Shown: positions 1,246 through 14,802 of the stretch, piece after piece
Layout of the letters: the number at the start of each line of letters is the position of its first letter
Position numbering within the stretch: the first letter of the stretch is position 1
From: an uncultured Selenomonadales bacterium
GTDB lineage: Bacteria; Bacillota; Negativicutes; Selenomonadales; Selenomonadaceae
DNA: 64,000 nucleotides
Direction of reading: 5' to 3'
NCBI GenBank assembly: GCA_900315155.1
Contig: OMYB01000001.1
Span: 124,001 to 188,000 of the forward strand
Translations under genes and position numbers: made by a program
The notes under the pieces: model-generated
Database searches by the model: none
Told to the model about the DNA's origin: nothing
Seen by the model: only the letters and a program-made list of their open reading frames with translations

Positions 1246-1320
1246 TTGCTTTCATTTCCCTCCCCTAAGTTATTCAAAGTCTTTCAGTCCCATTCAAAAT
1301 TCTATCAAGAAGGTATCTCT

Positions 1321-3486
1321 ATGAATCTGAAAAAGCCCCTGTTCCATTACGCGGACCGGTGGGGTAAGAACCGCGCGCTGCATGCGATGCAGAACGGCAT
1401 GATCCTCATGCTCCCCTTCATCTGCATCCACGCCATAGCAGCCGCACTTCTTACGCTTCCGTTCGCAGCCTGGCAGTCTCTGCTGCATAACAGCGTGCCG
1501 GGTCTTTACTATGCGCTTGCTGCGCTCTATCAGGCGACGGCAAACTACTTCTCCGTGCTCCTCACGGCTGCAATCAGCTATGGTTTTGCCCGCGAATGGC
1601 ATTTGAAGCCATTCCGGAGCATGCTGCTTTCGCTATCGACCATCGGCACGTTCTGGATTTTTTCCGGACAGCAGCTCCAGTATCTCACGACATCCGGCAT
1701 CTGCACGGCTATCGTTTCCGCCCTGTTCACGAGTGCCATTTATCTGAAGCTTTCCATATGGCAGCCCCTTGCCCGTCATATGCGCCGCCCGCGCTGCCAT
1801 ATCAACACACATCTCTACGATGTCATCTACGCCATCCCGCTCGCCACGGTCGTCTTTATCGCCGCGATTGCGACGCAGATCCTGATCATCACACTCGGAA
1901 ATGGCGTTCTCATCGAGAATCGGATCCTTTCGGCTGTCGGCGGTTTCCTCGCCCTGTTCGACGGCATGCCGCTCGTAGGTCAGGCTGTGTACGCCATGCT
2001 TTCGAATGGCCTTTGGTTCTTCGGCATTGACGGACAGTATGTATTCTATGGTGCGCACAGCGCCTTCGTTGGGCAGCAGGCCCAGGCAGCACTGACGGCA
2101 GGAGCCATTCCCGATGTGCTCATGAACCAGTCTTTCCTGAATTCCTTCATGATGCTCGGAGGCTCGGGTTCCGCCCTTGCCCTGATCCTCACGATCCTTT
2201 GGACCAGCCGGCAGAAATTCTCCCGCCAGGCGGCAAAGATGTCGCTGCTCCCCGCCATGCTGAATGTCGGAAGCGTACTCGTTCTTTCCCTGCCGATTAT
2301 CGGCAACCCGATTTTCCTCATTCCCTTTGTCCTAATTCCGATGGCCAACCTGCTTATCGCGTATGGATTCACCACGATGGGGGCAGTGCCGCTGACGCTG
2401 ACCGATGTTCCGGACGCCGTTCCCGTATTCCTCAATGGCATGACAGCCACGGGCTCTCTGGATGGAGCCGTGCTTCAGTTCCTGCTGTTGGGTCTGGATA
2501 TGATTCTTTACCTTCCCTTCGTGCTTCTCTACGATGATTACCGTGCGACGCAGGTCTCCCGCCTCACCCAGCATATGGTAAAACTCCATCAATGGTGCGA
2601 GTCCCGTGCGGAACGCGTCAATCCGGCGAACTTCAACGAGCAGCAGTCGCTGATCTTCTCCTGGCTGTCAAGTGATCTCGCCGAGGAACTCGATGACGAG
2701 CATCCGAAAAACATGTTCATGGTCTATCAGCCACAGGTCGACAGCACGGGCCATTGCATCGGTGCGGAGGCGCTCATCCGCTGGAACCATCCGAATGCCG
2801 GCTTTATCTACCCACCGCTCATCATCACGCTCGCCAAGCAGAGCGGACTCCTGCCGAAACTCGAGCAGTTCATCTTCCGCGATGCCTGCGAATGCATTGC
2901 CACGCTCGAGAAAAAGCTCGGCACCGGCTCCAATTTCAAGATTTCGGTGAACATTACCGGCGATTCCCTCCTCTACGACGGGCTCAATGAGTCGGTAAAG
3001 GACATTACGACGGCCAACGGCATCTCTCCGGAGAAGCTTTGGATCGAGATCACCGAGCAGGATACGATCACGCTGAACCGCCGCACGGAAATCAATCTCA
3101 AGAATCTGCGCGATCAGGGCCATAAGCTCATCATCGACGATTTCGGCATGGGCCAGACCTCGATCACTTATCTGCAGACCGGCATTTTCGGCATGGTCAA
3201 GCTCGACGGCAGCATCACCAAAAAGGTGCTGACCGATGAAAAGAGCCAGCAGATCATCTCCTCGCTCACGGATCTCTCGAAGCGCATGGATCTCGTGACC
3301 GTCGCCGAATACGTCGACAATGTGCCCCAGCGCGACAAACTGCGTCACCTCGGATGCGATATCTTCCAGGGCTATCTCTACAGCCCTCCGGTATCGAAGG
3401 ACGATCTCATCCGCCTCATGACGCATCAGGCACCGGATACACCGGAACCAACACCGGATATGGAAGAAGAATTGGCGATGGCTTAA
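1321..3486 (+). CDS. membrane protein: PTS EIIC-like domain fused to an EAL c-di-GMP phosphodiesterase
   Basis: This is a 721-residue protein. Residues about 20-415 are a polytopic membrane region resembling the EIIC permease of the lactose/cellobiose PTS family. Residues about 465-705 are an EAL domain. Visible EAL signatures are EAL at 483-485, EIT with E576, IDDFG with D606/D607, K627 and D629 (VKLD), AEYVD, and FQGYLYSPP. The metal and catalytic residues are therefore mostly present, so hydrolysis of cyclic di-GMP to pGpG is likely. The C-terminus is Pro/Glu-rich. The start at 1321 (MNLKKP) is chosen for its AGAAGG site; an in-frame ATG at 1246 lacks one. No EIIA/EIIB is adjacent, so the EIIC part may act as a ligand sensor rather than a transporter (inference). 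Confidence 0.85.
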   Translation: MNLKKPLFHYADRWGKNRALHAMQNGMILMLPFICIHAIAAALLTLPFAAWQSLLHNSVPGLYYALAALYQATANYFSVLLTAAISYGFAREWHLKPFRSMLLSLSTIGTFWIFSGQQLQYLTTSGICTAIVSALFTSAIYLKLSIWQPLARHMRRPRCHINTHLYDVIYAIPLATVVFIAAIATQILIITLGNGVLIENRILSAVGGFLALFDGMPLVGQAVYAMLSNGLWFFGIDGQYVFYGAHSAFVGQQAQAALTAGAIPDVLMNQSFLNSFMMLGGSGSALALILTILWTSRQKFSRQAAKMSLLPAMLNVGSVLVLSLPIIGNPIFLIPFVLIPMANLLIAYGFTTMGAVPLTLTDVPDAVPVFLNGMTATGSLDGAVLQFLLLGLDMILYLPFVLLYDDYRATQVSRLTQHMVKLHQWCESRAERVNPANFNEQQSLIFSWLSSDLAEELDDEHPKNMFMVYQPQVDSTGHCIGAEALIRWNHPNAGFIYPPLIITLAKQSGLLPKLEQFIFRDACECIATLEKKLGTGSNFKISVNITGDSLLYDGLNESVKDITTANGISPEKLWIEITEQDTITLNRRTEINLKNLRDQGHKLIIDDFGMGQTSITYLQTGIFGMVKLDGSITKKVLTDEKSQQIISSLTDLSKRMDLVTVAEYVDNVPQRDKLRHLGCDIFQGYLYSPPVSKDDLIRLMTHQAPDTPEPTPDMEEELAMA

Positions 3487-3573: not shown

Positions 3574-3954
3574 TTATGCAATGGCCATCAGCGCATCACA
3601 GACCTCTTCCCTGCGCTGCTTGCTGGTCCGCATGCGGTACATGCGGTACGGAACGATAAATTCCTCTGGCATCTCATCCGCGCATGCCACGGTCGGATCC
3701 GGCATCTGAAGGACATCCTCCATGACCGCCATCGCGTACATGAGGCCCTCCAGTTCCGTATCTGCCTTTTTTCGGCCCTCTGCGATAAGGACGCGGCATG
3801 CACCGATGGTCGGCAGCAGGAAGTCATCCTCTGCCGCCTCGCACTGCTTTTCCAGCTGATTCAACGTAAAGTCGATATTCATGTTCATCGTTGCCGTGAA
3901 CTGCGCTATCTCATCGCTCTTCTGCTCCAGCTGTTCCTGAATCGGATGATTCAT
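3574..3954 (-). CDS. hypothetical protein, 126 aa
   Basis: I do not recognise this family. The product is acidic and probably helical, with a strongly charged N-terminal half (MNHPIQEQLEQKSDEIAQ) and no signal peptide or membrane segment. The ATG at 3952-3954 follows a good GAAGG site. The gene is bounded by a shared terminator downstream and is divergent from the nitrogenase-like cluster. Reading-frame quality and the ribosome-binding site support it being real; the function is unknown. Confidence 0.65.
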   Translation of the reverse strand: MNHPIQEQLEQKSDEIAQFTATMNMNIDFTLNQLEKQCEAAEDDFLLPTIGACRVLIAEGRKKADTELEGLMYAMAVMEDVLQMPDPTVACADEMPEEFIVPYRMYRMRTSKQRREEVCDALMAIA

Positions 3955-4127
3955 GGTTCACCTTCTTCCTTTCAAAAACTTTACGAACTTTTTACGGTAA
4001 CAAGATTATATCACTTTCACGGGCTCTCCGCCAACTGTTTTCCGAAATTTTTCCGCCAAAAAACCCGCCATAGCGAAAAATATGGCCTGAAAATACGAAA
4101 ACGGTAAACAAATTTTATCCCAGGCTA

Positions 4128-4156
4128 TGGAAAAATGCTATCAATATGATTATAAT
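4128..4156 (+). promoter_or_regulatory. possible promoter of the nitrogenase-like/hyp cluster
   Basis: A consensus TATAAT lies at 4151-4156, with a weak TGGAAA 17 bases upstream (4128-4133). The ATG follows at 4190 after a CGGAGGA ribosome-binding site. Only the -10 box is convincing. No second promoter is evident before 14802. Confidence 0.4.
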
Positions 4157-4189
4157 AAAGAAGGAATACATCATTCGGAGGACTTATTT

Positions 4190-4945
4190 ATGTTGAAAAT
4201 AGCGATTTACGGCAAGGGTGGAATCGGCAAGTCGACCATGACGAGCAATCTCGCAGCGGCATTCGCCAAGCTCGGGAAACGCGTCATCCAGATCGGATGC
4301 GACCCAAAGGCCGACTCGACGATCAATCTGCTCGGCGGCGAGCCGCTCATGCCGGTCATGGAATATATGCGGAAATACGATAAGGAGCCGGAAAAGCTCG
4401 AGGAAATCTCCCGTACAGGATTCGGCGGCATCCTCTGCATCGAGACGGGCGGACCTACTCCCGGTCTCGGCTGCGCTGGACGTGGCATCATCGCGACCTT
4501 CAGCCTGCTCGAGGATATGGAATTATTCGAGAGGTTCCGGCCGGATGTCGTCCTTTACGATGTTCTCGGCGACGTGGTATGCGGCGGCTTTGCCGCGCCG
4601 ATACGCAAAGGCTATGCCGACGATGTCCTCATCGTGACCTCTGGCGAGAAAATGGCACTCTACGCCGCCAACAACATAGCCACAGCCGTCGAGAACTTCC
4701 AGGACCGCGGCTATGCAAAGGTTCGGGGTATCATCCTCAATCACCGGAACGTACCGAAGGAAACAGAAAAAGTAAAAGCTTTTGCCGACAGCAAGGGAAT
4801 TGATATCGTTGCGGAAATCCCGCGCAGCGACGATATCAACAATTTCGAGGAAGAAGGCAAAACCGTCATCGAAGGCAATCCGGAATTGCCGATCAGCCAG
4901 GCTTTCCTGACGTTAGCCCGTGAGCTGCTCGAGGACCATGAATAA
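4190..4945 (+). CDS. NifH-like Fe protein (nitrogenase-superfamily reductase ATPase)
   Basis: The product is 251 residues, close to canonical NifH-family length. It has the P-loop GKGGIGKST at 8-16, the DPKADST segment (38-44), [12 protein letters not shown] with C95, and [11 protein letters not shown] with C131. These two cysteines correspond to the ligands that hold the [4Fe-4S] cluster bridging the NifH dimer. The arginine of GCAGRG (R98) is also kept. The expected role is ATP-driven single-electron delivery to a NifDK-like partner. It is the only Fe-protein gene here, so it probably serves both component-1-like pairs (4965-7381 and 12194-14802). The start at 4190 is chosen over 4127 because CGGAGGA precedes it. 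This is not nitrogenase proper: nifE/N/B and standard nifDK are absent. Confidence 0.93.
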
Positions 4946-4964
4946 GAAAGGATGTGCCTCTGCT

Positions 4965-6311
4965 ATGTCAGAGAAACCATTTTACCGGACAGCTGCCGAG
5001 CTCGCCGAACAGGGAACAGCGAACCTGCCCGAGGAATTCCGCACAGATGCGCATCTCATCTGGAATTCCCCTGCCGCACTGGATTTCAATTCCCCTGGTG
5101 CGCAGGGATTCGGTGTCAAACGTGCCGGCCTCTCGATTCCCGGTTCCATCATGCTGCTCATCTCCCCGGGATGCTGCGGACGAAACACGGCGGCACTTCG
5201 CGGATCCGGGCACTATGGGGAGCGCTTCGCCTTCTATGAACTCGATGACAACGATATCGTCACGGGCCGCCATCTGAAGCGCATCCCCGAGGCAGTGCAG
5301 GCCTTTGTCGCCAGCCGGGAGAAACGTCCGAGCGTCGTCATGCTCTGCCTCACCTGCGTCGATGCCCTGCTCGGCACCGACATGGACCGGATCTGTGAGC
5401 GTGCGGAAAATGCCTGCGGTATCCCCGTACGCCCCTGCTACATGTATGCCCTCACGCGCGATGGCAGCCATCCGCCGATGGTCGCCGTCCGCGAGACGAT
5501 CTACAGCCTTCTTGAGCCCGCGAAAAAGCATCCCGATGCATGCAATATCCTGGGATACTTCACCCCGTTGGCAGCCAGCTGTGAATTGATGCGGATCCTG
5601 AACGGTTTCGGGATGAAGGCGATCCGCCAGCTCCCTTCCTGCCGGACTTACGAGGAATACCAACGCATGGCAGAGGCCAATTTCAACCTCGTTCTCGACC
5701 CCGAAGCACGTGCCGCGGCGGCCGACATGGAAAAACGGCTGCACATCCCTTACATCGAATTACACCGCACCTACCAGTTCGATAAAGTCGCCAATCAGTA
5801 CCGTGCCCTTGCCCGCACCCTTGGCGCAAATTTATCCGGACGTACCAGCTATGAGTGGACCACTCTGCAGCAGATCGAGATGTTCTGCCGCTATCATAAA
5901 GATATCCACTTCGCCATCGGAAGCCGCCTGAACGGCAATTCCTTCGATCTTGCTCTCGCCTTTGTGCGCTGCGGCCTTACTGTCGAAGAAATCTTTGCCA
6001 ATCCTCGCGCCGGGGATGCTTATTATCTCCGCGAGCTCGGCCGCCTCAGCCCGGATACGCGTATCTATACCAACCTTTCCCCGTCCATGGTCAACTATCG
6101 TCCGGAGGAGTCCGGCGTTACGTTCGCTATCGGCGAAGATGCCATCTGGTATCATCCCGGCATCCGCGGTATCGCTTGGAACGAGGAAATTCAGCCGTTC
6201 GGATTTGCCGCTATCCACAATCTCTTCGGTGCCATGGCTGCGGCACTGCAGCCCGGGCACATTCCCATGAGACGCCCATCCGGCAAGACAGCAAAGGAGG
6301 CATCCTGCTGA
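4965..6311 (+). CDS. nitrogenase component 1-like protein, D-type (D1)
   Basis: This is a 448-residue member of the nitrogenase component-1-type oxidoreductase superfamily. Cysteines sit in two segments that recall metal-cluster ligands: ISPGCCGRNT (C70, C71) and MLCLTCVDALLGTD (C128, C131), the latter resembling the family's C-x-x-(D/E)-x-L-I-G-D strand. A second Rossmann-like half follows, with NILGYFTPL and PSCRTYEEY. The chain ends in a cysteine (EASC). It is about 30% shorter than true NifD. The ATG at 4965 follows AGAAAGGA just after nifH-like; its stop overlaps the next start (TGATG), implying translational coupling with K1. The reaction is unknown. Confidence 0.85.
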   Translation: MSEKPFYRTAAELAEQGTANLPEEFRTDAHLIWNSPAALDFNSPGAQGFGVKRAGLSIPGSIMLLISPGCCGRNTAALRGSGHYGERFAFYELDDNDIVTGRHLKRIPEAVQAFVASREKRPSVVMLCLTCVDALLGTDMDRICERAENACGIPVRPCYMYALTRDGSHPPMVAVRETIYSLLEPAKKHPDACNILGYFTPLAASCELMRILNGFGMKAIRQLPSCRTYEEYQRMAEANFNLVLDPEARAAAADMEKRLHIPYIELHRTYQFDKVANQYRALARTLGANLSGRTSYEWTTLQQIEMFCRYHKDIHFAIGSRLNGNSFDLALAFVRCGLTVEEIFANPRAGDAYYLRELGRLSPDTRIYTNLSPSMVNYRPEESGVTFAIGEDAIWYHPGIRGIAWNEEIQPFGFAAIHNLFGAMAAALQPGHIPMRRPSGKTAKEASC

Positions 6312-7381
6312 TGAAAGGATTACGACTCTACCTTGCCCCATTTGCTCCGGATGACAGCGGGGCGGCATCCGTCCTTTATCCGCTCGGCGGTCTCGTCGTC
6401 ATCTGCGATGCGGGCGGCTGTGCCGGCAACATCTGCGGCTTTGACGAGCCTCGCTGGGGGCTGGGAGACAAGACGAGTGCGGTTTTCAGTGCAGGCCTCC
6501 GCGACATGGATGCCATCATGGGCCGCGACGACCGGCTCCTGGAAAAGATGAAACGTGCCTGCCAGGACGTGGATGCTCCGTTCGCCGCTATCATCGGCAC
6601 GCCTGTGCCCGCCGTGATTAGCACGGATTTCGATGCCCTCGCGCACATGGGCGAAACCCGCCTCGGTATCCCTGTCGTCGCCGTTCCCACGACCGGAACG
6701 CACCTCTATGACGAAGGCATCAGCCTGGCGCTCCTCTCCCTGTTTCAGCGCTTCTCCACACCATGCAAAAACCAGGGCAGCCGCCGGATTCTCGGCGTCC
6801 TCGGGGCCACGCCGCTCGACCTCAGCGATATCACAGCGGACCCGCTGCGCCAGGCTCTCGAGCCCGAGGGTTGGGAGGAGATCCGCATCTATGGCATGGA
6901 CGGCAGTCTCGATGCCTACCAGCGCGCCGCCGAAAATACCCGGAATCTCGTCTACAGTCCCGCCGGACTCGCTGCCGCAAAATGGCTGAACCAGCATTAC
7001 GGCACCCCCTATGAAATCCGCTGTCCGCTCACCCAAAGCGAATCCGCGGACGCGCAGCACCTCATCTCATACCTGAAACAGCACCCGAGCCGCGTCCTTG
7101 TCGTGCATCAGCAATACCATGCCAATGCCATCCGGGACGCCATCGAGCAACAGGTTTCTGACGCCTCGGTCACCTGTGCGACCTGGTTTATGCAGGACGC
7201 GGACAAAAGCCGGCCACAGGATAAGCATTTCACGGAAGAAGATGCATTCCGCAGCTGCCTGCAGGAACAGGACTTCGACATTCTTCTCGCCGACCCTGCC
7301 TTCCGCCGCGCCTTGCCACAGGGCCCCACGATTTCCTTTATCCCCCTTCCACATTTTGCGATAAGCGGGGAAGATAACTAA
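6311..7381 (+). CDS. nitrogenase component 1-like protein, short K-type (K1)
   Basis: The product has 356 residues. Its N-terminal half reads LGGLVVICDAGGC, then DEPRW and LRDMDAIMGRDDRLLEKM, matching the nitrogenase-family pattern of a glycine-cysteine loop followed by the DA-I-x-G strand. Cysteines 32, 37 and 42 cluster there. The C-terminus carries FIPLPH followed by SG. Those features recur in K2 (13528), so the two are paralogues. It is shorter than K2 by about 70 residues. The start codon overlaps the stop of D1 by one base. A D1-K1 heterodimer or heterotetramer docking with the NifH-like protein is inferred from family precedent. Confidence 0.83.
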   Translation: MKGLRLYLAPFAPDDSGAASVLYPLGGLVVICDAGGCAGNICGFDEPRWGLGDKTSAVFSAGLRDMDAIMGRDDRLLEKMKRACQDVDAPFAAIIGTPVPAVISTDFDALAHMGETRLGIPVVAVPTTGTHLYDEGISLALLSLFQRFSTPCKNQGSRRILGVLGATPLDLSDITADPLRQALEPEGWEEIRIYGMDGSLDAYQRAAENTRNLVYSPAGLAAAKWLNQHYGTPYEIRCPLTQSESADAQHLISYLKQHPSRVLVVHQQYHANAIRDAIEQQVSDASVTCATWFMQDADKSRPQDKHFTEEDAFRSCLQEQDFDILLADPAFRRALPQGPTISFIPLPHFAISGEDN

Positions 7382-7396
7382 AAATATCTACGAAAG

Positions 7397-9754
7397 TTGG
7401 TTGTTATTGTGTCCATTTACCATAGTAAAGTTTACGGCATCGTCCAGGGTGTTGGTTTCCGCCCGTTTGTCGATCGTCTCGCCGCGAAGCATCACATCTT
7501 CGGCAGCGTCAGCAACAAGGGCCCTTACGTCGAAATCTTCGCTCAGGGCAAAGAAGACGATTGCCAGGCATTCTATCAGGGACTCAAGGCGGAGGCGCCG
7601 GAGCGATCCGCCATCCTGAAGGTCGACACCGAGCCTCTCGACGTGCCCGAATCCTACACGGCATTTTCCATTATCGAGAGTGCCAGGGAGCGCGGCGATA
7701 TCTTCGTCTCCCCCGACATCGCAACCTGTGACAAATGCCGTGCCGAACTTTACGACCCAGACAACCGCCGCTACCTGCATCCTTTCATCAACTGCACGGC
7801 GTGTGGTCCGCGCCTCACGATTCTCGATCGTATGCCCTACGACCGCGAGCGCACCAGCATGAAAGAGTTCCTCATGTGCGACACCTGCCACGACGAATAC
7901 ACCGATCCGGACAGCCGCCGCTATGATGCGCAGCCGGTCTGCTGCAACGACTGCGGCCCGGAAGTCTATATCATAGGTGATGAATCTTGCCGTGGCGCTG
8001 CCGCCATCACGCGCACGCGGAAAACGATTGCCGATGGCGGTATCGTCGCCATCAAAGGCATCGGCGGATTTCACCTCGCCTGTGATGCCCGCAATGCGGA
8101 CGCCATCGCTCGTCTCCGCCGCCTCAAGCACCGCCCCGTCAAGCCCTTTGCCATCATGGCGCGCGATATGGATGCCGTACGCCGCGAGGCAGAGCTTCTC
8201 CCCGGACAGAAGGAGATTCTCACCGGGCATCAGAAACCCATTATCCTTCTGAAACGGAAACAGACGGCAGACGGTGCAGAGATTGCGGACATCGTCGCCC
8301 CTGGCAATCCAAAAATCGGCCTGATGCTGCCGTACAATCCGGTGCAGATGCTGCTCTTCGACTATCCGGATGATGTCCAGGAACGCATGCCCGATGTCCT
8401 CATCATGACGAGCGGCAACCCATCTGGGGCTCCCATCTGCCGCGACGATAAAGGTGCGCTCGAAGCACTTTCCGGCTTTACGGACCTCATGCTTTCGCAT
8501 AACCGCAAGATCCTCATCCGTGCGGATGATACCGTCATGGACTATCTCGATGACCAGCCCTACATGATCCGCCGCAGCCGCGGCTATGCCCCGCTGCCCT
8601 TCATGCTCAAAAACGATTGGCATGGTCAGGTCCTCGGTATCGGCGGCGAGCTCAAGAACACCTTCTGCGTCGGCAGGAACAATCTTTTCTATCCATCGTC
8701 CTACGTTGGCGATATGAGTGACCTCCGCACCGTTCTTGCACTCAAGGAAACCATCGGGCGTCTCACGGAACTGCTCGAGACCGAGCCAACGATTATCGCC
8801 TGTGACCTGCATCCACGCTATAACACGACCACGGTTGCGAAAGAACTCGGCCTGCCGATTTTCCCGGTACAGCATCATTATGCACACATTCTCAGCTGCA
8901 TGGCAGAGAATACTTTCGATGCGCCCGTCATCGGCGTCTCTTTCGACGGAACCGGTTATGGTACAGACGGCACCATCTGGGGCGGCGAAATCCTCCGCTG
9001 CGATTACGATGGCTTCGACCGTCTCGGCAGCATCACGCCATTCCAGCAGGCAGGCGGCGACAAATCCTCCACCGAAGGCTGGCGAATTGCCATTGCGATG
9101 CTTTACGGACTCACGAAAGATAAGGAAAAGGTGAAAGCCATCAACGAAGAACTGCACCTCTGCGACGAAAAAGAACTCACGGCGCAGTTCTTCATGGCGG
9201 ACCATCACGTCAACACGATCACGAGCACGAGTGCGGGGCGCCTCTACGATGCCGTCAGCGCGATCCTTGGTATCCGGCGCGCCTCCACATTCGAGGGTGA
9301 GGCATCCATGTATCTCCAGTACGCCGCAGAACGCGGTGCCGCCCGCCTCACCAAGGAGATGAAGGACGTCAACCTGCTGGAACTCACCGAACTTCTCACC
9401 ATCGAGGATGCGGGCGAATGCTTCCATCTCCCGACGGACCGTCTCTTCGCAGACCTTTTGCGTGCCCGACTGGAGGGTACGGCACCGGACTCCCTGGCGT
9501 GGACGTTCCATGCCGGCCTCGCGGCGATGATCCTCAATGCCTGTGAGAAAGCCCGCGAACAGACTCACCTCCATACGGCTGCCCTGTCGGGTGGGGTATT
9601 CCAGAATACGCTGCTCACGGAACTCGTGACGAATCTGCTGAAGGAGCATCACTTTACGGTCCTTCGCCACAGCCTCATCCCGCCAAACGATGGAGGAATC
9701 TGCCTTGGGCAGGCAGCTGCAGCCATGTATCATATCAACCATAACGAAAAGTAA
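7397..9754 (+). CDS. hypF: carbamoyltransferase HypF
   Basis: This 785-residue protein has the full HypF architecture. It begins with an acylphosphatase domain (VYGIVQGVGFRPF). Two zinc fingers follow, with C-x2-C pairs starting CDKC and CDTC. Then come a YrdC-like domain (GIVAIKGIGGFHLACDA, HRPVKPFAIM) and a Kae1-like domain with the metal-binding HHYAH. HypF makes carbamoyl-adenylate from carbamoyl phosphate and passes the carbamoyl group to the HypE C-terminal cysteine, the first step of cyanide-ligand synthesis. The start may be the TTG at 7397 or the GTG at 7409; neither has a strong ribosome-binding site, consistent with coupling to K1 15 bases upstream. Confidence 0.97.
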   Translation: MVVIVSIYHSKVYGIVQGVGFRPFVDRLAAKHHIFGSVSNKGPYVEIFAQGKEDDCQAFYQGLKAEAPERSAILKVDTEPLDVPESYTAFSIIESARERGDIFVSPDIATCDKCRAELYDPDNRRYLHPFINCTACGPRLTILDRMPYDRERTSMKEFLMCDTCHDEYTDPDSRRYDAQPVCCNDCGPEVYIIGDESCRGAAAITRTRKTIADGGIVAIKGIGGFHLACDARNADAIARLRRLKHRPVKPFAIMARDMDAVRREAELLPGQKEILTGHQKPIILLKRKQTADGAEIADIVAPGNPKIGLMLPYNPVQMLLFDYPDDVQERMPDVLIMTSGNPSGAPICRDDKGALEALSGFTDLMLSHNRKILIRADDTVMDYLDDQPYMIRRSRGYAPLPFMLKNDWHGQVLGIGGELKNTFCVGRNNLFYPSSYVGDMSDLRTVLALKETIGRLTELLETEPTIIACDLHPRYNTTTVAKELGLPIFPVQHHYAHILSCMAENTFDAPVIGVSFDGTGYGTDGTIWGGEILRCDYDGFDRLGSITPFQQAGGDKSSTEGWRIAIAMLYGLTKDKEKVKAINEELHLCDEKELTAQFFMADHHVNTITSTSAGRLYDAVSAILGIRRASTFEGEASMYLQYAAERGAARLTKEMKDVNLLELTELLTIEDAGECFHLPTDRLFADLLRARLEGTAPDSLAWTFHAGLAAMILNACEKAREQTHLHTAALSGGVFQNTLLTELVTNLLKEHHFTVLRHSLIPPNDGGICLGQAAAAMYHINHNEK

Positions 9755-9767
9755 GGAGATTCTATCT

Positions 9768-9974
9768 ATGTGTGTAGGTTTACCCGCAAAAGTCGTAAAA
9801 ATCCAGAATGGCACGGCACTCGTTGATGCCTCAGGCGCGCGCAGAGCCGTCTCTGCTGAGCTGCTCGATCATGTCGATCCCGGCGATTTTGTCATGGTGC
9901 ACGCCGGTATCGCCATCGCCAAGATTACGAGCGATGACACTGAAGAGGCCACGGATGTGCTCGCCTCGCTCTGA
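9768..9974 (+). CDS. hypC: hydrogenase assembly chaperone HypC
   Basis: The product is 68 residues. It has the invariant N-terminal MCVGLPAKV (C2 binds iron after removal of Met1) and VMVHAGIAI, the conserved histidine strand of HypC/HupF. An AAGGAG site precedes the ATG at 9768. HypC partners HypD to carry the Fe(CN)2CO fragment. Its place between hypF and hypD is the usual hyp order. One cannot tell from sequence whether it serves a hydrogenase or a different target. Confidence 0.95.
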   Translation: MCVGLPAKVVKIQNGTALVDASGARRAVSAELLDHVDPGDFVMVHAGIAIAKITSDDTEEATDVLASL

Positions 9975-10016
9975 TCCCCGGGATTTCCCCATATCAACCA
10001 TAAGGAATGACGTATC

Positions 10017-11066
10017 TTGAATGAACAGCTGAAAAAGGCCCGTGCGCTCGTCACGGGATATCAAGGCCGCCCGCTCCGCATCATGGAGGTCTGCGGCACG
10101 CATACCCATGAGATTTTCCGTCTCGGCATCCGCCAGCTCCTGCCGGAAAGCATCGCGCTGATTTCCGGACCAGGCTGCCCGGTCTGCGTGACGCCGACAG
10201 CATATATCGACGAAGCCATCTGGCTCGCTTTGGAAAAACAGGTCACCATCTGCACGTTCGGTGACCTCGTCCGCGTGCCGGGATCGAAAAAGAACCTCGC
10301 CGAAGCCCGCAGCGAAGGCGCGAACGTACAGGTTGTCTACACGCAGCTCGATGCCGAGAAATATGCAGCCGCGCACCCCGATGAGGAGGTTGCCTTCCTC
10401 TCCGTCGGCTTTGAGACCACGACACCGGGCGCGTGCCTCGCCGTCAAACGAGCGAAAGAAGCCGGCCTCACGAATTTCTCCCTGCTCACGGCAAACAAGA
10501 CGATGCCTGCCGCCTATCTCGCCATGGCGGGCAGCTGCGATGCCTACCTCTACCCCGGCCATGTCTGCGCCATTGCGGGTACGGGCGTGCCGGAATCCCT
10601 GGTCGAAAAAGGCATCTCCGGTGTCGTGACGGGATTCACGGCGAGTGAAATCATCACGGCACTTGCTGTGATCATCAAGAAATCCCAGGAAGGCAAGCCA
10701 TTCTTCGTCAATGCCTACCCACGCGTCGTAAAACGCGAAGGAAGCCCTTCCGCCCAGCAGCTTGTTGCCTCCATGATGGAAGACTGCGATACGGAGTGGC
10801 GCGGTCTCGGCGTGATCCCGAGGAGCGGCCAGCAGCTGAACGCTGCCTATGCCGCCTTCGACGCGCGAAAGAAGTACCAAATCCCTCCGCAGGCAGGCAA
10901 GCCCAACCCGGCCTGCCGATGCGGAGACATCCTGCGCGGTGCCTGCACGCCGCCGGACTGCCCGCTTTTCGGCAAAGTCTGCACGCCGGAAAAACCGGTC
11001 GGAGCCTGCATGGTCTCGCATGAGGGTGCCTGCTCGGCCTGGTATCAGTATGGAGGAAATTTCTAA
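10017..11066 (+). CDS. hypD: Fe-(CN)2-CO assembly scaffold HypD
   Basis: The product is 349 residues. Signatures are EVCGTHTHE (C26), GPGCPVCVTP (C54, C57), SVGFETTTPG, the GHVCAIAG strand, and a cysteine-rich C-terminus (CRCGDILRGAC, then DCPLFGKVC) that holds the [4Fe-4S] cluster in known HypD proteins. With HypC it forms the scaffold on which the iron receives cyanide and CO. Translation starts at a TTG (10017) with TAAGGA about ten bases upstream. No in-frame ATG exists nearby. Confidence 0.96.
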   Translation: MNEQLKKARALVTGYQGRPLRIMEVCGTHTHEIFRLGIRQLLPESIALISGPGCPVCVTPTAYIDEAIWLALEKQVTICTFGDLVRVPGSKKNLAEARSEGANVQVVYTQLDAEKYAAAHPDEEVAFLSVGFETTTPGACLAVKRAKEAGLTNFSLLTANKTMPAAYLAMAGSCDAYLYPGHVCAIAGTGVPESLVEKGISGVVTGFTASEIITALAVIIKKSQEGKPFFVNAYPRVVKREGSPSAQQLVASMMEDCDTEWRGLGVIPRSGQQLNAAYAAFDARKKYQIPPQAGKPNPACRCGDILRGACTPPDCPLFGKVCTPEKPVGACMVSHEGACSAWYQYGGNF

Positions 11067-12101
11067 ATGACGAATCACGATAACGACAAACGCATTACGC
11101 TCGCCCACGGTGCCGGAGGACGCCAGACAGCGGCACTCATCCAGGATGTCTTCGCGAAATATTTTGCGAACCCCGAGTTCACATCGGATGATGCGGCCAT
11201 CCTGCCCCTTGGCGGTAAGAAGGCCGCCTTTACGACAGACGGCTTCATTGTCTCGCCGTGGCAGTTTCCGGGCGGCAACATCGGCAAGCTCAGTATCTGC
11301 GGCACGGTCAACGACCTCTCCTGCATGGGCGCACAGCCGAAATATCTCTCCTGCGCCATGCAGATTGAGGAGGGCTTCCGCCTTGCTGACCTCGAGACCA
11401 TTGCCCAGTATATGGCAGAAACGGCTGCGGAGGCAGGTGTGCGCATCGTCGCCGGGGATACCAAGGTCGCCGGCCGCGGCCAGGTGGACCATATCTTCAT
11501 CACGACGACGGGCATCGGCGAGGTCATGGAGGGAGCTCATCCTGCCGGAAACCGTGCCGCAGCGGGCGACGCGATCATCGTAACGGGCGACATCGGCCGC
11601 CACGGCTGCACGATCCTGCTCGCAAGGAATGACTTCGATATCCAGGCTGAGGTCACGAGTGACTGCGCGCCGCTCTGGGGCACCGTGAAGTCCATGTTCG
11701 ACAGCCTCGAGCCAGCGGATAAAGGCGATATCCATGTGATCCGCGATGCCACGCGCGGCGGAGTTGGCACCGTTCTCTATGAAATTGCGGACGAAAGCCG
11801 TATCGGCATCCGCCTGTACGAAGCGGATATCCCTGTCGCCCCCGCTGTCAAAGGTGTCTGCGGCATGCTCGGCCTGAATCCGCTCTACCTCGCCTGCGAA
11901 GGCCGCCTCGTCGTCTTTGCCCCAAAAGCCATCGCCCCCCATCTCGTCGAAGTCCTGCGCCAGGGGAAATACTCACAGAACGCGGCCATCATCGGCGAAG
12001 TCACCGCCGAACATGCTGGCAAGGTCGTCGTTGAAACGGAAATCGGCACGCAGACCATGCTCCCCGCTCCGGGTGGCGAATTATTGCCCCGAATCTGTTG
12101 A
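11067..12101 (+). CDS. hypE: carbamoyl dehydratase HypE
   Basis: The product has 344 residues in the AIR-synthase/PurM-like fold. Visible motifs are LAHGAGGRQT, the FTSDDAAI strand, TDGFIVSP, RDATRGGVGTVL and the C-terminal tail PRIC. The last cysteine is the residue that HypE converts from thiocarboxamide to thiocyanate using ATP. The start is immediately after the hypD stop, with TATGGAGG upstream. Presence of the intact PRIC tail argues that the cyanide-synthesis branch is functional. A repeat element follows the gene. Confidence 0.97.
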   Translation: MTNHDNDKRITLAHGAGGRQTAALIQDVFAKYFANPEFTSDDAAILPLGGKKAAFTTDGFIVSPWQFPGGNIGKLSICGTVNDLSCMGAQPKYLSCAMQIEEGFRLADLETIAQYMAETAAEAGVRIVAGDTKVAGRGQVDHIFITTTGIGEVMEGAHPAGNRAAAGDAIIVTGDIGRHGCTILLARNDFDIQAEVTSDCAPLWGTVKSMFDSLEPADKGDIHVIRDATRGGVGTVLYEIADESRIGIRLYEADIPVAPAVKGVCGMLGLNPLYLACEGRLVVFAPKAIAPHLVEVLRQGKYSQNAAIIGEVTAEHAGKVVVETEIGTQTMLPAPGGELLPRIC

Positions 12102-12112
12102 CTTCGAGTATG

Positions 12113-12176
12113 GCGCCCCCGTTGAGGGAGCTGTCGCCGCAGGCGACTGAGGAGGTCTCCTGCACTACGATATAAT
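12113..12176. repeat. intergenic palindromic repeat, copy A (degenerate)
   Basis: Three short stem-loops in tandem: CCCCC-GTTG-AGGGAG, then TCGCC-GCA-GGCGA, then GGAGGTCTCC. It matches in order and spacing the reverse complement of 33461-33545. Elements of this shape are common in Firmicute intergenic regions. Here it interrupts the cluster between hypE and D2. Confidence 0.7.
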
Positions 12177-12193
12177 CTGTGAGGTGTTTTCTT

Positions 12194-13534
12194 TTGCTAC
12201 AGAAGCTGAACGGCCATCCCTCCCGCGCCTGCATGCGCCTGGCGGAGGCCGAGTTCCCTGCCCCTTTTGCCCATACGCTCGAGTACTCTTCTCCGGCACG
12301 AGGCACCTGGAATATCGTCCATACGGGCATGCAGCTGCCGGAATCGCATCAAATCTATATCTGTGCCTCCGGCTGCCTGCGCGGCGTCGTCCTCACGGCG
12401 GCGGAAATGGGTGCGATGGACCGTTTTTCTTCCGTGGAAGTCAAGGAGAAAGACCTCGTCGATGTCGACAACGAAGCATTCCTCATCGACGGCATCTCTG
12501 ATATCATCGACCGCCTGCCGCAGAAACCGCGCGCGATTCTCGTCTTCCCCGCCTGCGTGCACCATTTCCTTGGCGTGAATTTCGACTATGTCTACGGCAA
12601 TCTGCGCCACCGTTACCCGGATATCGACTTCATCCCCTGCATGATGGACCCTATCCGGCAGACGCGCAGCATCACACCAGAGCAACGTGAGCGCCGGGAA
12701 ATCTACCGCCAGCTTCGCCCACAGGCGCATGAGGAAAAGGCGTGCAATATCCTGGGCAGCAACCTGCCAACGGACCCGGATAGCGATCTCATGCGCCTGC
12801 TCACGGATAACGGCTGGACGGTACGGGATATGACAACGTGCAGCACCTATGACGAGTTCCTTGCCATGGCAAAAGGCCAGTTCAATATCTGGTACAACAC
12901 ATTTGGCGGGCCAGCGGCCAGGGACTGCGAAAAGCGGCTCCAACAGGACAGCCTCCACCTCCCTCAGCTTTGGGGCTATGAAGAAATCACAGAAAATCTC
13001 CATCGCCTTGCGGATCGCATCGGCGTCCCACGCCCCGACTGGCGTCTGCGTATCGCTGAATGTGAGCTCGCACTCGATGCCCTGCACGAGCTCATCGGAG
13101 ACACGCCCATCGCCATCGACCTGAGCTTCGTCTTCCACCCCTTCAGTCTCGCCCGGCTCCTCCTCGAGCACGGCTTTCACGTCACACAGATCTTCGCGGA
13201 CGCCGTATTTCCTGAGGACGAAGCCGATTTCCGCTGGACAAAGGAACATGACGGAGACATCGAACTTTGGGCTACGAAAAATGCGGATCTCCGTCTCATG
13301 GACCGCCATGCTGCGTCCGGAAAAACCGGGCAGAAACTTCTCGCGCTCGGTCAAAAGGCGGCGTATTTCAACGATACCCCCTACTTCGTGAACTTCGTCG
13401 AGGGTGGCGGGCTCTTCGCCTTCGAAGGAATCATCAAACTCGCCCATCTCATGTCAGAAGCCTTCCTCATCCCGAAGGATACCCGCTCCCTCGTGCTGCA
13501 GAAAGGCTGGGGAGGACCGTGCTGCCTATGCTGA
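12194..13534 (+). CDS. nitrogenase component 1-like protein, D-type (D2)
   Basis: This 446-residue paralogue of D1 shares an NILG...LMR-L-x2-(F/N)-G-(M/W) block, C-x-TY-(D/E)-E and the EIFA/QIFA segment. Its putative ligand segments differ: ICASGC (C57, C61) and VFPACVHHFLGVN (C121). The chain ends GGPCCLC, giving three cysteines in the last four residues. A TTG start at 12194 is preferred because GAGGTG lies eight bases upstream; a GTG at 12179 is the alternative. The gene overlaps K2 by seven bases. No hydrogenase or nitrogenase catalytic partner is nearby, so substrate and reaction are unknown. Confidence 0.82.
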   Translation: MLQKLNGHPSRACMRLAEAEFPAPFAHTLEYSSPARGTWNIVHTGMQLPESHQIYICASGCLRGVVLTAAEMGAMDRFSSVEVKEKDLVDVDNEAFLIDGISDIIDRLPQKPRAILVFPACVHHFLGVNFDYVYGNLRHRYPDIDFIPCMMDPIRQTRSITPEQRERREIYRQLRPQAHEEKACNILGSNLPTDPDSDLMRLLTDNGWTVRDMTTCSTYDEFLAMAKGQFNIWYNTFGGPAARDCEKRLQQDSLHLPQLWGYEEITENLHRLADRIGVPRPDWRLRIAECELALDALHELIGDTPIAIDLSFVFHPFSLARLLLEHGFHVTQIFADAVFPEDEADFRWTKEHDGDIELWATKNADLRLMDRHAASGKTGQKLLALGQKAAYFNDTPYFVNFVEGGGLFAFEGIIKLAHLMSEAFLIPKDTRSLVLQKGWGGPCCLC

Positions 13535-14802
13535 ACCAGACTGCCCGCATCATTTCCACCTACTCTGCCGATACGTTCGGTGTCTGCTCCGCTCTTTTCG
13601 AGCTCGGCGGCATGGTCGTCATCCATGACCCATCGGGATGCAACTCCACCTATACGACGCATGACGAGCCCCGCTGGTACGACCATGACAGCATGATCTA
13701 TGTCTCTGCGCTCAACGAGCAGGACGCCATCCTCGGCAACGATACCCGTTTCCTCGATGAGACCATTGAAACGGTCCGCCAGCAGCAGCCGGCGTTTGTC
13801 TGCCTCATTGCCTCACAGATTCCCTTCCTCATCGGCACGGATATGGCAGCGCTCGCCCGCATCGTCGAGAAAAAAACCGACGTGCCGGTCTTCACGCTGC
13901 CGACGAATAATATGCACTACTATGAGCGGGGCATCTACTTTGCACTCGAAAAGCTCGCGAAGCATGTGGCAGCCGTTACGAAGGGCAAAGAAAAGGCATG
14001 GGCTCCGGCAGGAAAGACCTTCCAGCACCTGACAACGAAAGCTCCTTCTCTTACCCTCAATATCCTGGGCGTCACACCGCAGGATTTCTCGGTGAACGGC
14101 AGTGAGGACACGATGCATATCTGGGCGAAAAGCCATGGATTTCATGTGCAGAGCTGCTGGGCAAGAAAAACCAGCCTCGCGGAAATCGAACAATCCGGCC
14201 ACGTAGATGTCAACCTGGTCGCGACCTACGGCGGGCTCGGCGCTGCCCGCGTCCTCCAAAAAGAACTTGGCATTCCCTTCGTCATCGGCGCACCAATCGG
14301 CGTCATGCAAACGTACCTCGCAAAAGCTTTACCCAAAACCGCCGAAGACAAGCAGACGCGCTGCCCGTTCCTCAAGGATGCCGGGCAGCGGGATTTCCTC
14401 ACCGAAGAGCTTGACAAGGCTGTACTCCCCCATACGGAAGGGTCCGCTTTGCATCAGGCATCCCCATCCAGCCTGCTCATCGGTGAAAGCGTCTATGCGC
14501 AGTCCCTCGCAGAGGCGATTGCCTCCGCAACGGGGCATCCTTTCCGCGTCATCGTACCGATGGAGACGGAGCCCTGCCTGCTGCGCCGCGATACCATCCG
14601 TGTCATAGATGAAGTGGACCTGGAACCGCTCTTTGCGCAGGCTCCCAGTATCATCGGAGACCCGATGTACCAGCCCATCCTGCCGAAGACGAGCCGGTTC
14701 ATCCCCCTGCCGCACGAAGGGTTCTCCGGCCGCCTCTACGAGCGCCAGATCCCGAATCTCATCCATGCGGACGCCCTGCAGCAATTCTTGACGAAAATCT
14801 AA
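13528..14802 (+). CDS. nitrogenase component 1-like protein, K-type (K2)
   Basis: The product has 424 residues. It shares with K1 the LGGMVVIHDPSGC loop (C38), the DEPRW motif at 46-50, SALNEQDAILGNDTRFL and a C-terminal FIPLPH followed by SG. It also has YGGLGAARVLQKELGIPF, a Rossmann-like strand-turn-helix seen in component-1 proteins. The ATG at 13528 overlaps the D2 stop; GGAGGA at 13511-13516 is the ribosome-binding site. K2 is the last gene before a strong terminator. Compared with K1 it lacks the extra cysteines 32 and 42, so the two pairs probably bind clusters differently or do different steps (inference). Confidence 0.82.
   Translation: MLNQTARIISTYSADTFGVCSALFELGGMVVIHDPSGCNSTYTTHDEPRWYDHDSMIYVSALNEQDAILGNDTRFLDETIETVRQQQPAFVCLIASQIPFLIGTDMAALARIVEKKTDVPVFTLPTNNMHYYERGIYFALEKLAKHVAAVTKGKEKAWAPAGKTFQHLTTKAPSLTLNILGVTPQDFSVNGSEDTMHIWAKSHGFHVQSCWARKTSLAEIEQSGHVDVNLVATYGGLGAARVLQKELGIPFVIGAPIGVMQTYLAKALPKTAEDKQTRCPFLKDAGQRDFLTEELDKAVLPHTEGSALHQASPSSLLIGESVYAQSLAEAIASATGHPFRVIVPMETEPCLLRRDTIRVIDEVDLEPLFAQAPSIIGDPMYQPILPKTSRFIPLPHEGFSGRLYERQIPNLIHADALQQFLTKI

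Follow-up and report, generated by a model that had tools for sequence, protein, structure and literature searches.

Introduction

What do hypCDEF genes serve when they stand in the middle of an operon for nitrogenase-like proteins? The question is raised by positions 4190-14802 of a stretch of 64,000 nucleotides (the window) from an uncultured Selenomonadales bacterium of the family Selenomonadaceae, where nine intact genes lie on the same strand in the order NifH-D1-K1-hypF-hypC-hypD-hypE-D2-K2, spaced by 0-92 bases and with two overlaps. In Hyp chemistry HypF and HypE produce thiocyanate from carbamoyl phosphate and HypCD form Fe(CN)2CO. Assembly of the H-cluster of [FeFe]-hydrogenases is described as the HydEFG pathway, in which tyrosine is the source of carbon monoxide (CO) and cyanide, HydG is the enzyme making both from it, and HydE and HydF complete the 2Fe subcluster. 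Based on our data we consider it probable that the operon is a HydG-independent supply of the iron-CO-cyanide precursor for the H-cluster.

Alternation of the operon with HydG

The family of the window's genome (G000) comprises 189 genomes, with named members including Mitsuokella, Selenomonas and Schwartzia, and D1 or part of the operon is present in 24 of them. Among the 94 Selenomonadaceae that carry HydF, 62 have HydG only, 23 the operon only, none both and nine neither, while among the 95 HydF-negative genomes HydG occurs in none and the operon in one. The alternation between HydG and the operon is seen inside single genera (g22, g23 and g29) and recurs in a sample of 299 Lachnospiraceae genomes, of which 131 hold HydG and 19 the operon, all 19 with HydF and none with HydG. 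Pooling the HydF-positive genomes of both families gives 190 with HydG only, 42 with the operon only, none with both and 23 with neither. The swaps within genera and the same pattern in a second family speak against a one-off event, and the substitution of HydG by the operon is strongly supported genetically.

The neighbouring genes point in the same direction. NCBIfam names three recurrent neighbours of the operon, the TM1266 iron-only hydrogenase regulator, HydF and HydE, and at least one of them lies inside the fetched flanks of 42 of 80 loci. Ruminococcus bicirculans presents all parts as a single run, TM1266-HydF-HydE-H2-D2-K2-H1-D1-K1-x-HypF-HypC-HypD-HypE, and in another member of the Selenomonadaceae (G179) HydF stands immediately 3' of K2. 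HydF accompanies the operon in 23 of the 24 carriers in this family, and in the window's genome HydF and HydE were found and HydG was not. Because of the TM1266, HydE and HydF neighbours and the exclusion with HydG, we assign the operon a role in H-cluster assembly; the preliminary description of this DNA had stopped at a free-standing nitrogenase-like complex with an unknown product, an end point that these findings replace.

Several points weigh against this assignment. Although HydG scores above its cut-off in only two of 50 named carriers, these two, Clostridium drakei and Clostridium thailandense, hold both HydG and the operon, and in one Selenomonadaceae genome (G127) the operon is present and HydF was not found. 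Of the 23 HydF-positive genomes with neither HydG nor the operon, only some are accounted for by importers, a broken HydG or incomplete assemblies. The p-value of ~1e-31 for the pooled genomes is inflated by their kinship, as are the other p-values given here. Finally, the HydG-replacing role is read from genes and genomes, and the substrate of the D/K proteins is a proposed one.

A group of six Selenomonadaceae (G173, G175, G176, G177, G117 and G166) has HydF and neither HydG nor D1; in the loci read from this group (L167, L169, L170 and L204) no matching importer was found beside HydF.

A conserved unit of two modules

An alignment scan with D1 across 84,980 species yielded 502 loci encoding D1 relatives, which span Clostridia, Selenomonadales, Coriobacteria, Lentisphaeria and Synergistia. 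The best 80 of the 502 include Clostridium acetogens, Blautia, Roseburia, Anaerobutyricum hallii, Coprococcus and R. bicirculans, and they also cover Coriobacteria, Lentisphaeria and one metagenome-assembled genome of the Synergistaceae. The full-length loci read consist of two linked modules, H1-D1-K1-HypF-HypC-HypD-HypE and (H2)-D2-K2, and in loci from several classes the H2-D2-K2 module either precedes or follows the Hyp-bearing one. In the Selenomonadaceae gene order is identical in every intact locus read, and H2 was not seen in the operons read from this family. As it recurs across classes, the nine-gene operon is an old, conserved unit and not a chance assembly.

Two genomes depart from this layout. 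In the Schwartzia-like genome G140 no D2-K2 adjoins the D1-Hyp operon, and a NifH-D-K set similar to module B stands alone on a separate contig (L058, 11274-14596). In G163 (L071/L072) the reading frames of D1 and NifH are interrupted by several stops and by frame breaks, and the HydF of this genome has stops as well, which is decay or assembly error.

A second, dedicated Hyp set

All four HypCDEF proteins score above curated cut-offs with their catalytic residues present, and the signature elements are kept among relatives: the PRIC tail in 59 of 60 HypE, the cysteine motifs in 65 of 65 HypD and the Met-Cys start in 63 of 63 HypC. The operon thus has HypC, HypD, HypE and HypF with intact active sites in common with HypABCDEF maturation, and differs from it in that HypA and HypB are missing, most carriers are without a NiFe hydrogenase and the HypD clade is separate. 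The NiFe large subunit (PF00374) had no match in 36 of the 50 carriers checked, so that a NiFe hydrogenase to serve is not present in every carrier; a full large subunit was found in eight (five Clostridium and three Selenomonadaceae), and six gave only an N-terminal match of ~70 positions.

The window's genome does encode such an enzyme. On contig C19 we found a full-length NiFe large subunit (3732-5453), HypB (7111-7743) and a second HypC, HypD and HypE. At least two HypD copies occur in 22 of the 24 operon carriers compared to five of the 165 other Selenomonadaceae (p 7e-22), and HypD of the operon forms one clade, separate from the four hydrogenase-linked HypD of a small comparison set. 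Because the window's genome holds a second set, 36 of 50 carriers are without NiFe and the operon HypD has a clade of its own, we conclude that hypCDEF of the operon is a second, dedicated set serving the nitrogenase-like genes and not NiFe maturation. The tie between the hyp and nitrogenase-like genes that the preliminary description had drawn is thereby upheld. Its claim that HypAB and hydrogenase subunits are absent holds at the locus and fails genome-wide for HypB and the NiFe large subunit, and of the finding that it said would speak against the tie, a NiFe operon and hypAB elsewhere and no other conserved linkage, the first half is present in part, as a NiFe operon with HypB, and the second is contradicted by the conserved linkage.

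In one carrier (G170, L053/L087) the operon has D1, K1, HypF, HypC, D2 and K2 and is without NifH, HypD and HypE, and the sole HypD of the genome is the hydrogenase-linked copy. As this operon lacks its own HypD and HypE, it suggests that client specificity resides in HypC and that HypD and HypE can be shared.

Nitrogenase-like proteins outside NifDKEN and BchNB

D1 has cysteines at the positions of NifD 88 and 154 and none at 275, D2 has invariant C62, C66, C126 and C221 (numbering of the open reading frame in the window), and K1 and K2 each have an invariant C37 at the position of NifK 95. Each D/K dimer keeps the equivalents of the P-cluster cysteines alpha-88, alpha-154 and beta-95 (three of six) and is without the other three and without alpha-275, the cysteine ligand of the FeMo-cofactor (FeMoco). 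Judged from the sequences, the three kept cysteines per dimer would be enough for one iron-sulphur cluster with a fourth ligand. In H1 the P-loop and both cluster cysteines are invariant across 18 relatives, and its score falls under the NCBIfam cut-offs of NifH, CfbC, BchL and BchX (for the CfbC model, 300 bits where 402 are required).

In a tree that included NifDKEN and BchNB and left out MarDK and CfbD, D1 groups with D2 and K1 groups with K2, both with good support and both outside NifD, NifE, NifK, NifN, BchN and BchB, so that for these families the position outside known clades, on which the preliminary description had staked its claim, is borne out. AlphaFold models of D1 and D2 show the component-1 fold (predicted local distance difference test 81.5 and 83.8, respectively). 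Fold searches with both models gave template modelling scores of ~0.6 to nitrogenases, NifEN, MarDK and BchNB alike, with no family favoured, and profile searches of the PDB returned distant NifE, NifD and BchB matches only.

Each known family shares something with the operon. NifEN is a metal cofactor assembly protein and NifE is the best PDB sequence match of D1 (E 1e-13), yet NifE has a cysteine at the FeMoco-site position, which D1 and D2 have not, and its clade is separate. Dark-operative protochlorophyllide oxidoreductase (DPOR, BchLNB) and CfbCD combine an ATP-dependent NifH-like donor with a D/K-like acceptor that has no FeMo-cofactor, and there too the substrate is expected in the cofactor cavity; in contrast to these, the D/K proteins of the operon fall outside BchN/BchB, no tetrapyrrole genes are nearby and two paralogous modules are linked. 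MarHDK and its group IV relatives are nitrogenase-like HDK proteins of anaerobes, Clostridium acetogens included, where group IV-A MarHDK-like genes lie near mlp clusters (PMC10418091). Published MarDK, however, has nitrogenase metalloclusters whereas D1 and D2 lack the FeMoco cysteine, the gene neighbours differ, and the fold matches of D1 and D2 to MarDK structures are no more than distant.

Nitrogen fixation is ruled out by the missing cysteine ligands and the tree position outside NifDKEN, and DPOR by the ligands, the tree and BchL and BchX scores below cut-off. We propose that the ligand pattern would fit a reductase that, like DPOR, holds its substrate at the FeMoco site, the candidate substrate being an Fe-CO-CN complex.

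Importers beside HydE and HydF

Loci in which the H2-D2-K2 module stands beside HydE and HydF with an interleaved FecCD-type ATP-binding cassette (ABC) importer (permease, ATPase and substrate-binding protein), and with neither HydG nor D1, were found in G355 (L190/L191), G371 (L196), G462 (L199) and G463 (L200). G481 (L201) has the same FecCD-type arrangement, with the contig ending before the D2-K2 region, and TM1266 is also among the genes in all five. In three further genomes with neither HydG nor D1, namely G286 (L193), G379 (L197) and G418 (L198), HydF adjoins a NitT/Ssu-type importer, and two of these loci also contain HydE. Altogether, a strong importer match was obtained at eight of 13 HydF loci from genomes without HydG and D1, compared to none of the 18 loci taken from genomes with HydG (p 2e-4).

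One reading is that importer-bearing cells take up a precursor made by other cells; another is that the HDK proteins act on imported iron complexes. More distant NifH-D-K sets are joined to iron-complex ABC importers on plasmid pTS1 of Treponema saccharophilum (L206, 12599-20255) and, between TonB siderophore receptors, on plasmid pSPTER of Sporomusa termitida (L207, 3972-11296), and the second reading likens the HDK role to these.

Discussion

The operon and HydE-HydF-HydG maturation have in common TM1266, HydE, HydF and the need for iron-bound CO and cyanide; the operon route differs in being without HydG, in its extra nitrogenase-like reductases and in its cyanide, which would derive from carbamoyl phosphate via Hyp and not from tyrosine. 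In the HydG pathway the substrate of HydE carries one cyanide and two CO. As Hyp yields (CN)2CO and HydE takes one cyanide with two CO, the ligand ratio and the redox state must change on the way, and the candidates for this change would be D1K1, which adjoins Hyp, and D2K2, which adjoins HydE and HydF.

We picture the route as follows. HypF and HypE would turn carbamoyl phosphate into enzyme-bound thiocyanate, as in known Hyp chemistry, from which HypC-HypD, whose catalytic residues are present, would assemble an Fe(CN)x(CO) unit. H1-D1-K1, always encoded beside HypFCDE, may then bind this unit, or a CO source such as CO2 or a formyl compound, in the cavity vacated by the FeMo-cofactor and reduce it with ATP-gated electrons, so that its ligands would change from (CN)2CO in the direction of the CN(CO)2 used by HydE. 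The paralogous (H2)-D2-K2, which stays beside HydE and HydF even where D1-Hyp is missing, could carry out the last reduction or the hand-over, and HydE and HydF would finish the 2Fe subcluster. This division of work between the two D/K pairs is itself a proposal. The whole picture, a second HydG-free route to the H-cluster in which two nitrogenase-like reductases remodel Hyp-made iron-cyanide-CO and in which importer-bearing gut bacteria suggest transfer of an organometallic precursor between cells, is put forward tentatively, as a possibility that we rate below even.

Among the alternatives, the one that survives best keeps the supply of cyanide by HypCDEF and confines the nitrogenase-like modules to the production of CO, with CO2 as one conceivable source, to the dithiomethylamine bridge or to the supply of electrons. 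The bridging ligand is not a HydG product, and for this reason a role in its synthesis cannot explain the exclusion of HydG; furthermore the presence of two paralogous modules, of which one goes with Hyp and the other with HydE and HydF, suggests two successive steps. We regard this alternative as rather unlikely, while acknowledging that it would fill a gap, as a 2025 review describes it as unresolved where HypCD obtain CO under anaerobic conditions and what donates electrons to HypD (PMC12134894).

It is improbable that a different enzyme receives an Fe-CO-CN cofactor from the operon and that the operon meets HydE and HydF merely through shared strict anaerobiosis. The operon product is deduced from its genes, and C. 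drakei, C. thailandense and G127 would be accommodated by this explanation, but anaerobiosis alone predicts neither the exclusion of HydG inside single genera nor a gene run shared with TM1266-HydF-HydE. That hypCDEF is an ordinary NiFe maturation set with the nitrogenase-like genes as unrelated neighbours is very unlikely: HypCDEF are by definition NiFe maturases, and a NiFe hydrogenase is present in the window's genome and in nearly all Selenomonadaceae carriers, yet the NiFe operon owns its hypC, hypD and hypE and the order of the operon genes is constant across classes. A NiFe-only role of hypCDEF is ruled out by that separate hypCDE and by the 36 carriers without the large subunit. A nitrogenase or an enzyme of the methylthio-alkane reductase type with a passenger hyp set is the least credible, since against its NifH/D/K-like parts and the MarDK and nitrogenase fold matches stand the missing FeMoco cysteine, the loss of three of the six P-cluster cysteines, the tree position outside NifDKEN and BchNB, the HydEF linkage and the exclusion of HydG.

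Di Leonardo et al. (PMC9431212) report HydA for Clostridium ljungdahlii and relatives. In C. ljungdahlii, C. ragsdalei and C. coskatii and in strain AWRP they describe HydE and HydF without HydG and also HypCDEF without HypAB; C. carboxidivorans shows the first of these combinations and C. autoethanogenum the second. They also mention the purification of an [FeFe]-hydrogenase complex from C. autoethanogenum, credit this species with a plausible HydG of atypical motif, and offer several possible explanations for absent HydG, none of which, in the accessible part, invokes nitrogenase-like genes. The acetogen C. ljungdahlii is among our operon carriers. The main text of the transposon essentiality study of C. 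autoethanogenum (PMC9004356) does not discuss the operon genes, and a literature search, which did not cover preprints, found no paper linking the absence of HydG, Hyp and nitrogenase-like genes.

If true, a second route would explain the maturation of [FeFe]-hydrogenase without HydG in C. ljungdahlii and its relatives, and it would extend to Blautia, Roseburia, Anaerobutyricum and Ruminococcus of the gut and to rumen Selenomonadaceae, so that many gut and gas-fermenting bacteria may build the H-cluster by an undescribed route. It would add a pre-formed Fe-CO-CN complex as a new class of substrate for nitrogenase-like enzymes, join the NiFe, FeFe and nitrogenase-like organometallic systems that have so far been treated apart, and provide a new maturation set for the engineering of industrial acetogens. 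It also bears on where HypCD obtain CO in the absence of oxygen.

Genes of the operon and the rest of the window

Pfam and NCBIfam recognise one NifH/CfbC-like protein, four Oxidored_nitro proteins, HypF, HypC, HypD and HypE in the operon (Table 1), and together with conservation among relatives they confirm the nine co-directional genes, the NifH P-loop with its cluster cysteines and the PRIC tail of HypE described initially.

Table 1. Genes of the operon, with positions in the window
Gene	Positions	Strand	Product	Family match	Start codon
H1	4190..4945	+	NifH-like ATPase, electron donor subunit, [4Fe-4S]	PF00142 1.5e-87	
D1	4965..6311	+	nitrogenase component-1-like alpha subunit, module A	PF00148 1e-26	
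K1	6311..7381	+	nitrogenase component-1-like beta subunit, module A	PF00148 1.4e-13	
HypF	7397..9754	+	carbamoyltransferase	TIGR00143 744 bits, cut-off 466	possible GTG start 7409
HypC	9768..9974	+	Fe-CO-CN chaperone	TIGR00074 66.9 bits, cut-off 48	
HypD	10017..11066	+	scaffold with [4Fe-4S]	TIGR00075 387 bits, cut-off 193	
HypE	11067..12101	+	carbamoyl dehydratase, PRIC tail	TIGR02124 403 bits, cut-off 252	
D2	12194..13534	+	nitrogenase component-1-like alpha subunit, module B	PF00148 4.1e-14	TTG, set by comparison with relatives
K2	13528..14802	+	nitrogenase component-1-like beta subunit, module B	PF00148 5.4e-23	

Elsewhere in the window, positions 1246-3486 (+) encode a protein of 746 amino acids that by eye resembles a fusion of a sugar phosphotransferase system permease with an EAL (cyclic-di-GMP phosphodiesterase) domain.

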